Origin: Streptomyces albogriseolus
Lineage (GTDB): Bacteria; Actinomycetota; Actinomycetes; Streptomycetales; Streptomycetaceae
Length of the DNA: 64,000 nucleotides
Assembly: GCA_014650475.1 (NCBI GenBank)
Contig: BMVA01000003.1
Coordinates: 372,001-436,000 of the forward strand
Direction of reading: 5' to 3'
How positions within the stretch are numbered: position 1 is the stretch's first letter; each line of letters begins with the position of its first letter. A program made the translations under genes and the position numbers. The notes beneath the pieces are model-generated. The model had not been told where the DNA came from. It made no database searches and saw only the letters and a program-made list of their open reading frames with translations. Shown here piece after piece: positions 11,779 through 42,959 of the stretch.

Positions 11779-11792
11779 GTTTCACGTGAAAC
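11779..11792. promoter_or_regulatory. parS: parS centromere site (ParB binding)
   Basis: The 14-bp perfect palindrome GTTTCACGTGAAAC equals the Streptomyces parS consensus. It lies in the divergent intergenic region between aspS and the PP2C gene. ParB binds such sites near oriC and organises chromosome segregation during sporulation. A chance match to this 14-mer in 64 kb is very unlikely, and a second one occurs at 40501. Confidence 0.93.
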
Positions 11793-39412: not shown

Positions 39413-40516
39413 TCAGCCGCGCAGCGGGCGGACGTCCGGGGCGATCTGGGTGACCGGTGTGGCCCGCACGATCGTGATCAGCCGGTCCGTCAGCTCCAGC
39501 GTCCCGAGCTCACGGTCGTCGTAGCCGAGCACCCGGTGCCCGCGCACCACGCTCACCACCAGGTCGTCCAGCTCCCGCGGGGTCTTGCCCACCTCGGCCT
39601 TTATGACCGGCCGCTCCACGACGTCCAGCCCGGTGCCCTGCTGGATCAGGTCCTCCATCACCATGCCCGCCGCCGGGCTCAGCACGGAGAGGCCCAGCAG
39701 CCGCCCGGCCGCGCTGGCGCTGGTGATGACCGCGTCGGCGCCCGACTGCTTGAGCAGCGGCGCGTTCTCCTCCTCGCGGACCGCGGCGACGATCTTGGCG
39801 TTGCGGTTGAGCTGGCGGGCCGTCAGCGTCACCAGGACCGCGGTGTCGTCGCGCTGGGTGGCGATGATGACCTGGCGGGCCCGCTGGAGCTCGGCCCGCT
39901 TCAGCACCTCGCTGCGCGTCGCGTCCCCTATGACGCCCGCGTACCCGTCCGCCGTGGCCGCCTCGATCGCCTTGGCACTGGGATCGACCACCACGACCTG
40001 CTCCTTGCGAAGCCCTGTCGCACAGACCGTCCTGATCGCGGACCTGCCCTTGGTCCCGAACCCGACGACTACGGTGTGATCGCGCAAGGTGGACCTCCAG
40101 CGGTTCAGTCGCCATTCCTCCCGGGTGCGTTCGGTGAGGGCCTCGAGGGTGGTGCCGACCAGGATGATCAGGAACATCACCCGCAGCGGCGTGATGACGA
40201 AGATGTTGGTGAGCCGGGCCGCGTCCGTCACCGGCGTGATGTCGCCGTAGCCCGTGGTGGAGAGGGTGACGGTCGCGTAGTAGAACGCGTCGAGCAGGTC
40301 GAGGGAACCGTCCGAGTTGTCGTTGTACCCGTCCCGGTCGGCGTACACGATGAATGCCGTCACCACGAGCACCAGCAGGGCCATCGACAGTCGCTTGGCG
40401 ACCTGGCGGATCGGGTGTTCCACCAGTTTGCGCGGCAGCTTGACCCGATACGTGACCAGATGTTCGTCGGCCTGACGGGCGATGGCGTCCTGGCCCGGAA
40501 GTTTCACGTGAAACAC
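39413..40516 (-). CDS. Potassium channel with TrkA-N (RCK) domain
   Basis: A 367-residue channel subunit: cytosolic start, membrane helix (about 43-60), pore helix and filter STTGYGDITP, second membrane helix (about 105-125), then an RCK domain beginning VVVGFGTKGR and a TrkA-C-like end. It should form a tetrameric K+ channel gated by a ligand bound to RCK. It is the last gene of mobA-moeA-channel. The GTG at 40516 overlaps the moeA stop by 13 nt, and the parS site encodes its residues 2-6; a start further inside is possible, since the first 20 residues are not conserved in the family. Confidence 0.88.
   Translation of the reverse strand: MFHVKLPGQDAIARQADEHLVTYRVKLPRKLVEHPIRQVAKRLSMALLVLVVTAFIVYADRDGYNDNSDGSLDLLDAFYYATVTLSTTGYGDITPVTDAARLTNIFVITPLRVMFLIILVGTTLEALTERTREEWRLNRWRSTLRDHTVVVGFGTKGRSAIRTVCATGLRKEQVVVVDPSAKAIEAATADGYAGVIGDATRSEVLKRAELQRARQVIIATQRDDTAVLVTLTARQLNRNAKIVAAVREEENAPLLKQSGADAVITSASAAGRLLGLSVLSPAAGMVMEDLIQQGTGLDVVERPVIKAEVGKTPRELDDLVVSVVRGHRVLGYDDRELGTLELTDRLITIVRATPVTQIAPDVRPLRG
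40501..40514. promoter_or_regulatory. parS: parS centromere site inside a gene overlap
   Basis: A perfect GTTTCACGTGAAAC. On the minus strand it supplies the TGA stop of moeA (40506-40504), and it reads TTT CAC GTG AAA in the frame of the channel gene directly after that gene's GTG start (40516-40514, so the final G of the codon is the first base of parS). It is identical to the site at 11779. Confidence 0.93.
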
Positions 40517-41904
40517 ACCCCGATTCCCCCGGACGCCCAGGGCAGATCCAGCAGTTCCGCCTCGTGCCCGGGCTTCGCGCCCCCGGGCGGCACGACGGCC
40601 AGCGCGTCCGCCGCGGCGATCCCGCGCAGCATCGCCGGCCCGTTGTAGAGCAACGGCAGTGCCCGGTCGCCGCGCAGGGCGACGGGCACCAGCCGCGTGT
40701 CGTGCGGATGCCCCTGCACCGCGTCCCTGAGCGGCAGCGTGTACCCCTCAGGGGCGGGCCGGGCCGCCAGGGTCCGCAACAGCGGCTCGGCGAGCGTGAC
40801 CAGGCCGGACACGGCGGCGAGCGGGTTGCCCGGCAGTCCGACGAGGTACTGCTTCTCCGAGATCCTCGCCAGCAGCATCGGGTGACCGGGACGCACCGCG
40901 ACCCCGTCCACCAGCAGCTCCGCGCCGAGCCGCCGCAGAGTGGGATGGACATGGTCGACCGGGCCCGCGGCGGTGCCGCCGGTGGTGACCACGACATCGG
41001 CGTCACAGGCCGTCAACGCCTGGTGCAGGGCGTCCTCCTGGTCCCCGACCCGCCGTACGTCGACCACGTCCGCGCCGAGCGCGCGCAGCCACGGCGGCAG
41101 CAGCGGGCCCAGCGCGTCCCGGATCAGCCCGTCGTGCGGCAGCCCCTCCCCGAGCAGCTCGTCACCGAGCACGAAGACGGCGGCGCGCGGCCGGGGGACG
41201 ACGGTGAGCGTGTCGTAGCCGGCGGCCGCGGCCATGCCGAGCACCGGCGGGGTCACCAGGGTGCCCACGGGCAGCAACTGGTCGCCGTTGCGGCACTCCT
41301 GGCCGCGGGGGCGGATGTCCTGGCCGTGCGAGACGGTGTGCGGCGCCCGGGTGGCGGCGGTGGCGTGCAGCCGGCCCTTGTCGTCCGTACGGCCGTGCTC
41401 GCTGCGGAGCACGGCGGTGGTGTCCGGCGGGATACGCGCGCCGGTGGCGATCCGCACGGCCTCCCCGTCGGTCAGCGGCGCGTGCACGGTGTGCCCGGCG
41501 AGGACGCCCTCCTCCCGTACGTCCCAGGGGCCGGGGCCGGAGACCGCCCAGCCGTCCATCGCCGAGGTGTCGAACGACGGCAGGTCGGTCAGCGCGACCA
41601 GCGGCGCGACCAGGGTGAGCCCGAGCGCGGAGGACAGCGGGACCGAGACGGGCGTGAGGTGTCCGGCGCGGTGCCCGCCGCCCCGGCGGGGGGCGCGTTC
41701 GGCGGTCGCGCGGGCCTCCGTCCAGTCGGCGCCCTCGCGGTGCGCGGGGGCACCGGAGGCGGGAGTGCCGTGCGTGCCGTCGCCGTGCGTGCGATCGCCG
41801 GAGGGCCGGTCGCCGGGGGCGTGTGCGTCGTTCACGAGGGCGAGCGCCTCCTCGACGTCGAGGTCGTCCGCGTCCTCGCCGGCCCGAGGCGTGCGCGGGG
41901 TCAT
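40504..41904 (-). CDS. moeA: Molybdopterin molybdenumtransferase
   Basis: A 466-residue MoeA that inserts molybdate into adenylylated molybdopterin. It has the family block PSFDTSAMDGWAV, the substrate loop TTGGTAAGPVDHVHPTLRRLG, and GLPGNPLAAVSG near the C-terminus. Residues about 28-80 are a hydrophilic insertion rich in Asp, His and Gly with short GDxTHG repeats between the first helix and the core, longer than usual. Its ATG overlaps the mobA stop by 4 nt, and its stop lies in parS. Confidence 0.92.
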   Translation of the reverse strand: MTPRTPRAGEDADDLDVEEALALVNDAHAPGDRPSGDRTHGDGTHGTPASGAPAHREGADWTEARATAERAPRRGGGHRAGHLTPVSVPLSSALGLTLVAPLVALTDLPSFDTSAMDGWAVSGPGPWDVREEGVLAGHTVHAPLTDGEAVRIATGARIPPDTTAVLRSEHGRTDDKGRLHATAATRAPHTVSHGQDIRPRGQECRNGDQLLPVGTLVTPPVLGMAAAAGYDTLTVVPRPRAAVFVLGDELLGEGLPHDGLIRDALGPLLPPWLRALGADVVDVRRVGDQEDALHQALTACDADVVVTTGGTAAGPVDHVHPTLRRLGAELLVDGVAVRPGHPMLLARISEKQYLVGLPGNPLAAVSGLVTLAEPLLRTLAARPAPEGYTLPLRDAVQGHPHDTRLVPVALRGDRALPLLYNGPAMLRGIAAADALAVVPPGGAKPGHEAELLDLPWASGGIGVCFT

Positions 41905-42860
41905 CCGGCGTCCGTGCGGGGTTCGGGTTCCGCGCCGCCGGACGGGGTCGCGGGCGCCGCGTCCTGGGCGTCCTCCTCGGCCCAGCGGTTGGCCAGCGCG
42001 ACGGCCTTGCGGGCCGCCTCGGCCACGGCGTCGGCGTCACCGCCCGCCCGCGCGGCCGCGTAGCCGACGAGGAAGGTGGTCAGCGGGGCGGCCGGCCGTG
42101 CCACGCCGTGGGCGGCGTCACGGGCGAGGTCGAGCAGCACGCCGGTGTCGACGTCCAGGTCGATGCCCAGCTCGTCCTTGACTGCGGAGATCCATTCGTC
42201 CAACACGTGTCCATGCTCCCTGATGCGTGCCCTGGCAGTGGCGATGTCGTCCCAGGTGTCGCAGTCGAAGGACGCCACCGGGTCGGAGATGCGGTGAAGA
42301 TCGAGGGCACCGGTGAGCCGGCGCAGGGGGAGTCCGGCCGTACCGCCGTGCGCGGCGGAGAGCGCGGCCAGCTCGCGGCGCAGGGCCGGCGTGCGGTACG
42401 CGGCCACCAGCGGCTGGTCCCGGCCGTCGGAGTCGGTCAGCAGCACGCCGTCGGCCGCGCCCGGACGGAGGGTGTCCAGCAGCGCGGCGACCGTGCGGCC
42501 GTCGAGGAAGGGCAGGTCGGCGGAGAGCAGCACGACATGCTCGGCGGTGACGTGCCGCAGTCCGGCGTCGAGCGCGGCGAGCGGACCGCCGCCCGGCGGG
42601 TCCTCACGGGCCCAGGTCACGGGGCGCGCGGTGGGACGGGGACCGGCCACGACCACCGTGGTGCGGGCACCGGCGCAGGCCGCGAGCACCCGGTCGAGCA
42701 GCGGCCGTCCGCCGACCCGCACGGCCGGCTTGTCGGCGCCGCCCAGCCGCCGGGCCGCACCGCCGGCGAGCACGACGGCGTCGTACGCGACGGCGCGCGC
42801 CGCGTCGTCCGGGGCGCCGGGCGCGGTGCCGTGCGCGGCGGGTGGCTGGTACTCGGTCAC
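41901..42860 (-). CDS. mobA: MobA-like nucleotidyltransferase fused to DUF6457 domain
   Basis: A 319-residue protein. Residues about 20-205 form the MobA GMP-transferase fold (VVLAGGAARRLGGADKPAV, then LLSADLPFLDG), which attaches GMP to molybdopterin. Residues about 215-300 form a small helical domain (LDEWISAVKDELGIDLDVD...NRWAEE) of the DUF6457 type. GTG 42860 is preferred, preceded by GGGGG. It begins the mobA-moeA-channel operon, overlapping moeA by 4 nt. Molybdenum cofactor genes upstream of the insertion step are not in the window. Confidence 0.9.
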   Translation of the reverse strand: MTEYQPPAAHGTAPGAPDDAARAVAYDAVVLAGGAARRLGGADKPAVRVGGRPLLDRVLAACAGARTTVVVAGPRPTARPVTWAREDPPGGGPLAALDAGLRHVTAEHVVLLSADLPFLDGRTVAALLDTLRPGAADGVLLTDSDGRDQPLVAAYRTPALRRELAALSAAHGGTAGLPLRRLTGALDLHRISDPVASFDCDTWDDIATARARIREHGHVLDEWISAVKDELGIDLDVDTGVLLDLARDAAHGVARPAAPLTTFLVGYAAARAGGDADAVAEAARKAVALANRWAEEDAQDAAPATPSGGAEPEPRTDAG

Positions 42861-42959
42861 CCCCCGAGTATGCGTGCCCCCGCGATCACAGGGAACGCAG
42901 GGGCACGTGGGAAGGGACGAGCGGCCCACCGGGGGACGGGTGAGGCCGGGCGGTGACGG

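Follow-up and report, generated by a model that had tools for sequence, protein, structure and literature searches.

A predicted parS site of the origin-proximal cluster contains the moeA stop codon and the probable start codon of a potassium-channel-like gene in Streptomyces

Streptomyces chromosomes carry clusters of parS sites, which have been counted at 24 in S. coelicolor and 16-17 in S. venezuelae (PMC12207404, PMC4852455, PMC12511625), and the ChIP-seq account for S. venezuelae describes ParB bound at 17 parS, with a signal reaching 2.5-3 kb (PMC12511625). Sites within genes have been described as well, an example being parS1 of C. glutamicum, which lies in trpCF (PMC7083940). With respect to neighboring genes, the P. 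aeruginosa report states that ParB represses the genes adjoining the intergenic parS3 and parS4, and that the genes adjoining the intragenic parS1 and parS2 are not raised in cells lacking ParB (PMC5521831). For B. subtilis, the genes near parS are reported as unchanged upon loss of Spo0J (PMC7022226).

The palindrome GTTTCACGTGAAAC, a perfect 14-bp parS with no mismatches and no strand of its own, is present at positions 40501-40514 of the window, by which we mean the whole 64,000-nucleotide stretch of Streptomyces albogriseolus DNA that was analyzed. A second perfect copy (11779-11792, likewise strandless) lies between two predicted genes of the window and belongs to the same origin-proximal cluster. 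The whole genome holds 17 perfect copies, 16 on contig C3 and one on contig C38, together with four copies that carry one mismatch, and a reversed-order control of the palindrome gave no matches in the same genome. The 16 copies on C3 span C3:383779-555485, and dnaA (C3:466956-467441) lies inside this stretch, about 54 kb from the junction copy; with 16 of 17 copies within 172 kb around dnaA, the sites are clustered near oriC. In the identity of the palindrome, its comparable copy number and its proximity to oriC, this set resembles the chromosomal clusters of Streptomyces as far as the cited extracts describe them (PMC4852455, PMC12207404). Judged from sequence, the copy at 40501-40514 is a real parS of the origin-proximal cluster, at which we infer that ParB binds. 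Unlike what the published cluster accounts specify in the parts drawn on here, which leave copies at gene starts unmentioned, one copy in this genome contains a stop codon and probably also a start codon.

Stop and start codons at the moeA-channel junction

The genes at the junction follow one another on the minus strand in the order mobA-like gene (41901-42929; NTP_transf_3 and DUF6457), moeA for molybdopterin biosynthesis (40504-41904; Pfam MoeA_N, MoCF_biosynth and MoeA_C), and a gene for an RCK-type potassium-channel-like protein (39413-40507 when read from the central GTG of parS; Ion_trans_2 and TrkA_N). The closest named homologues of the channel among the best 80 of 521 matches, at 98% identity, come from S. 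althioticus, S. griseoincarnatus and S. werraensis. The mobA-like gene and moeA overlap by 4 nt (ATGA, 41901-41904). The longest channel open reading frame (39413-40516) begins with a GTG at 40516-40514 that has one base in common with the palindrome, and which we call the edge GTG. The stop codon of moeA, TGA at 40506-40504, lies inside the palindrome, so the perfect 14-mer does supply it, as the first-pass annotation had stated. The same annotation placed a parS-type site on an operonic junction where it doubles as a translation signal, and this holds in that the site contains the moeA stop and the probable channel start. Because TGA occurs in one frame on each strand of the palindrome, parS is able to end genes from either side.

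We compared the junction across an even sample of the genus comprising 199 Streptomyces genomes, 191 of which have the channel. Junctions were examined in 171 of the 191 (G013, G015, G029, G034, G038, G046, G066, G070, G071, G074, G076, G101, G107, G115, G126, G147, G171, G178, G179 and G188 were left out), and the sampled genomes are related, such that the counts are not independent. A perfect parS occurs in exact register at the channel in 119 of the 171 junctions and is thus kept at the same place in relatives. One further genome, G010, has perfect copies just upstream of, and not in, the channel register, and the other 51 lack parS both in register and in the interval from 300 nt upstream to 200 nt downstream of the aligned start. 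The site is therefore dispensable in these 52 genomes. Among named channel loci, all 80 have parS in register (edge codon GTG in 77 and ATG in 3), a set that gives no rate, having been gathered in part with the pattern MFHVKLPG and being the best 80 of 521. Another member of the genus (L230) has one mismatch in its parS, and no perfect parS was found within 60 nt of the aligned channel start in 12 loci from other genera (L240-L252). When mapped onto a tree of 70 channel proteins (32 with parS in register, 6 alignable without it and 32 divergent), the parS label requires 2 changes, a number compatible with a single origin of parS at the channel start. The site forces the codons TTT and AAA onto the channel frame. 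Since these are rare locally (TTT accounts for 13 of 1521 codons for Phe, and AAA for 28 of 1566 for Lys, among the genes predicted in the 200 kb around the site), parS is costly in codon terms. In a number of genomes (L413-L425 and others), an additional match, shorter and confined to the TrkA_N part (approximately residues 130-365, 75-87% identity), lies close to a channel that is more diverged, and splitting or replacement of the channel may have occurred in these genomes.

The moeA stop was placed by moeA homology. Cruder tests performed less well: a peptide motif failed to detect moeA in 15 of the 19 alignable genomes that lack parS in register, and for G010 an open frame was misleading. 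Of the 119 parS-register genomes, 108 have moeA homology that stops at the TGA of GTGA, 10 have the moeA stop 34-115 nt further upstream, and one gave no moeA match. Seven of those 10 moeA genes end in CFT, the peptide given by a parS stop, and a second perfect parS is visible upstream in G079 and G056; duplicated parS copies seem to have shared out the moeA stop and the channel start. Where parS is not in register, 15 of the 19 alignable genomes likewise have the end of moeA at the TGA of GTGA, G010 has it in the upstream parS, and a moeA match was absent from the upstream DNA fetched for G048 (57 nt), G154 (487 nt) and G031 (450 nt).

Overlaps of 4 nt with the form NTGA are a feature of translationally coupled genes. 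Like such genes, the pairs described here have GTGA at moeA/channel and ATGA at mobA-like/moeA. In the window itself, moeA ends at the TGA of the downstream GTGA (40504-40507, minus strand), which combines the moeA TGA with the probable channel GTG at 40507-40505. Unlike ordinary NTGA overlaps, this GTGA forms the middle of a centromere palindrome in 108 of the 119 parS-register genomes. An overlap of 13 nt had been proposed in the first-pass annotation; the mechanical open reading frames of moeA and the channel do overlap by that length, whereas the real overlap is probably the 4 nt of GTGA. Likewise, the alignment across Streptomyces bears out the conservation of the 14-mer and does not uphold the 13-nt overlap. 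Given that 15 of the 19 alignable genomes lacking parS in register have the GTGA overlap too, its length is not fixed by selection on the ParB site, contrary to what had been suggested.

The site and the junction can also be found apart. A perfect parS is missing from the fetched locus in 25 of the 33 genomes in which the channel N-terminus is not alignable; in the other 8 it coincides with the stop of a frame 150 codons or more in length. Seven of these 8 frames have a moeA-like end (LPW...FT, judged by eye) and run on the strand opposite to the channel. There are thus 7 genomes in which parS provides the moeA stop and the channel does not follow moeA, indicating that the site can persist without the junction. 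Together with the 10 genomes in which moeA stops upstream, this speaks against the idea that parS and junction are inseparable. As a separate observation, three loci (L420 of G062 at 2512-2626, L421 and L419) contain tandem arrays of 5, 3 and 2 perfect parS, respectively, between a channel gene and a moeA gene placed end to end.

Given that the palindrome contains one GTG at its centre and borders on another at its edge, we compared the codons at both places. In the 119 parS-register genomes the edge place is occupied by GTG (99), ATG (14), ACG (4) or GCG (2), and 6 genomes therefore have no start codon there. In five of these 6, reading upstream in frame meets no ATG, GTG or TTG ahead of a stop or of the limit of the fetched DNA, and the sixth, G163, has two upstream in-frame ATG codons. 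The channel N-terminus is alignable in 19 of the 52 genomes without parS in register (G010 included). The central place is GTG in all 19, and none of the 19 has ATG, GTG or TTG at the edge place, where AGG (10), GGG (6), AGA (1), GAG (1) and GGC (1) are found instead; G010 has an ATG two codons ahead of the central GTG.

Predicted Shine-Dalgarno pairing, calculated with what we take to be the anti-Shine-Dalgarno tail, agrees with these alignments. In the 19 genomes without parS in register, the best pairing ends 5 nt (12) or 6 nt (7) before the central GTG, and in the 119 with parS it ends 7 (48), 5 (47), 8 (14), 4 (8) or 9 (2) nt before it. The match extends into the edge codon in 117 of the 119. 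At the window's own junction the pairing region (approximately 40514-40524, minus strand) has an in silico energy of -11.9 kcal/mol and ends 7 nt before the central GTG. The control for spacing is broad, at 0-19 nt over 94 genes of the same genome with rough starts. Since the edge codon is not always a start codon, the central place is GTG in 19 of 19 genomes and the Shine-Dalgarno spacing fits, we take the central GTG as the start: the channel most probably begins at 40507-40505, three codons after the edge GTG, which is probably unused. Because 113 of 119 genomes have GTG or ATG at the edge, a second or alternative start there is possible.

Predicted mRNA folding in the 119 genomes with parS and the 19 without gave no indication of a start hidden by parS. 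On its own, the 14-mer has a weak fold (-2.3 kcal/mol). The mean unpaired probability of the start GTG is 0.58 with parS versus 0.25 without, and from the Shine-Dalgarno region to +6 it is 0.39 in both sets. The mean energy of 75 nt is lower with parS (-27.9 versus -25.0).

The parS copy at cydCD

A second parS, about 116 kb from that of the channel, lies at the start of cydCD (around C3:528538-528540), which encodes a fused ABC transporter and follows the gene for cytochrome bd subunit II. We found cydCD in 60 of 61 genomes of the genus, 49 of which contributed the 50 junctions that we examined (two from G022; loci L286-L315, L376-L395 and L426-L454). The site stands in the same register as at the channel in 42 of the 50, with GTG (16), ATG (16), CTG (7) or TTG (3) at the edge, and in the other 8 the central place is ATG (6) or GTG (2). 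In other genera of the family, where 29 of 30 genomes have cydCD, parS is in register in 3 of 29, all from genus g7, and the central place is ATG (14) or GTG (12) in the other 26. The cydCD start is thus often ATG without parS and necessarily GTG with it. None of our sequence comparisons points to the central GTG as the start more strongly than this one, which also shows that the predicted start-codon arrangement exists at two unrelated genes. The chance of two exact-register starts among 16 sites is 9.0e-5 if sites may fall anywhere and 3.4e-3 if they are confined to intergenic DNA, both being rough figures that rest on approximate gene calls and on an arrangement noticed prior to testing. 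In 18 of the 42 parS-register junctions, a second perfect parS occurs within 200 nt upstream.

Like C. glutamicum parS1 (PMC7083940) and P. aeruginosa parS1 and parS2 (PMC5521831), in so far as these extracts describe them, the junction copy is a ParB site that is also read as codons. Unlike those intragenic sites, it is located at an initiation site, where its central GTG is probably the start codon, and its register is conserved at two genes. We did not find a parS forming a start codon in the titles and abstract openings of the open-access literature, a search in which most subscription papers lay outside the scope. While parS in coding DNA is already known, start-codon-centred sites across much of a genus and at two genes may be new, which a search of this kind does not prove. 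The comparison also suggests that mechanical or automatic gene starts lie three codons too early at both the channel and cydCD.

Competing explanations for the shared sequence

We consider it very probable that a parS of the cluster is doing translational work here, with the central GTG as the channel start, GTGA ending moeA, and the 14 bases kept for predicted ParB loading. The coding strand reads Shine-Dalgarno, then TTTCAC, then GTG AAA C. The left half-site would form the spacer between the Shine-Dalgarno sequence and the start, the central GTG would start the channel with AAA as codon 2, and the TGA overlapping it would terminate moeA. Because 4-nt overlaps exist without parS, the site was probably gained on an existing stop/start junction of this kind, or lost from such junctions in some lineages. 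Gain might have been favored in that GTG-AAA suits initiation and start regions tolerate A+T-rich DNA, after which selection for ParB loading would maintain the 14 bases. Translation would proceed by ordinary Shine-Dalgarno-directed or coupled initiation on the mRNA. On the DNA, ParB would nucleate as at other parS and spread; this copy would be one of about 17 nucleation points, and its effect on the channel would probably be small. One 14-bp sequence is apparently under two or three constraints, as ParB site, start codon and stop codon.

The first-pass annotation had instead started the channel at the edge GTG, such that parS would encode residues 2-6, with the 13-nt overlap fixed by selection on parS. 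The frame is indeed open from that codon, and GTG or ATG stands there in most parS-register genomes; its replacement by ACG or GCG in 6 of 119, the lack of any start codon there in 19 of 19 alignable genomes that have no parS in register, and a Shine-Dalgarno match that reaches into it in 117 of 119 argue against its use, as does CTG at the edge in 7 of 42 cydCD junctions. With GTGA overlaps also present in 15 of 19 genomes without the site, we regard this account as improbable. Far less probable still is that the 14-mer is kept for its peptide, FHVK of the channel or CFT of moeA, rather than as a ParB site. Two frames do read through the site, yet the same DNA precedes an unrelated protein at cydCD and is read in another frame, as VSRET, in ParA-like and ParB-like genes, and FHVK and CFT are absent from channels and moeA genes without parS. 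TTT and AAA are moreover invariant in the register set despite being rare, where it is the rarity that counts, given that the set was defined by the perfect site.

A somewhat better candidate than either, and still an unlikely one, is that ParB at this site regulates the channel, and perhaps CydCD, for instance by blocking transcription at the junction, which would explain the retention of parS. Since ParB acts on DNA, any such control would be of transcription. Conservation at two gene starts is consistent with this, and so is the repression at intergenic parS3 and parS4 in the cited P. aeruginosa passages (PMC5521831). The same passages record no rise at the intragenic sites, however, and the B. 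subtilis extract no effect of Spo0J loss (PMC7022226); parS is out of register or absent at 52 of 171 junctions, and it is also kept at the end of moeA in genomes where the channel does not follow moeA. We therefore favor passive double use of the sequence and keep regulation by ParB as a live option of lower likelihood. More speculative, and doubtful in our view, is the idea that a centromere has been built into the initiation sites of the channel and CydCD so that developmentally changing ParB loading tunes their transcription. If true, the state of chromosome segregation would be linked directly to ion flux and to the assembly of the terminal oxidase. Site and start can be altered independently of each other, which offers a clean genetic test of a ParB effect at a gene junction; if there is none, the junction would be a good example of a centromere element settling where the sequence cost is lowest.

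The remaining parS copies

Of the 16 copies on C3, two are at start codons (channel and cydCD), one is inside a gene for a Dyp-type peroxidase, two lie within the frames of what we take from their sequences to be ParA-like and ParB-like proteins, where they are read as VSRET (C3:472785 and C3:473912), and 11 are between or upstream of predicted genes. A simple GC-frame gene finder had called four parS on gene starts and missed the N-termini of the ParA-like and ParB-like proteins. Two of the candidate starts were dropped, the one at a luciferase-like gene because the site is upstream of a likely later start, and the one at the Dyp-type peroxidase because the site is inside the gene. A combined pattern, GGAGG N1-7 TGTTTCACGTGAAAC, matched in 69 of 101 genomes of the genus and gave no match with the reversed control. 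It was rejected as a gauge of start use, as its match in the window's own genome at C3:472785 is the ParA-like frame (VSRET) and no start.

Several copies have features of their own. The parS in the peroxidase gene (C3:547285; L346-L375) is read as FHVKHQPGI, and in most of the 30 fetched loci the site there has one mismatch or is weaker still; many relatives have GTTTCACGGGAAAC, which, with its rare codons ending in A or T, looks like a degenerate predicted ParB site kept in coding DNA. At C3:535526 (L316-L345), in some relatives only, parS is followed at a short distance by a conserved TAGGCTC, which may be a promoter -10 element, and then by the luciferase-like monooxygenase gene. The copies at C3:487361, 487403, 505512 and 473912 are centred in longer inverted repeats, the first three of which are intergenic and resemble terminator hairpins. 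The 17th parS (C38:26102-26115) lies close to the end of a contig, immediately ahead of a sequence resembling the start of a tRNA gene.
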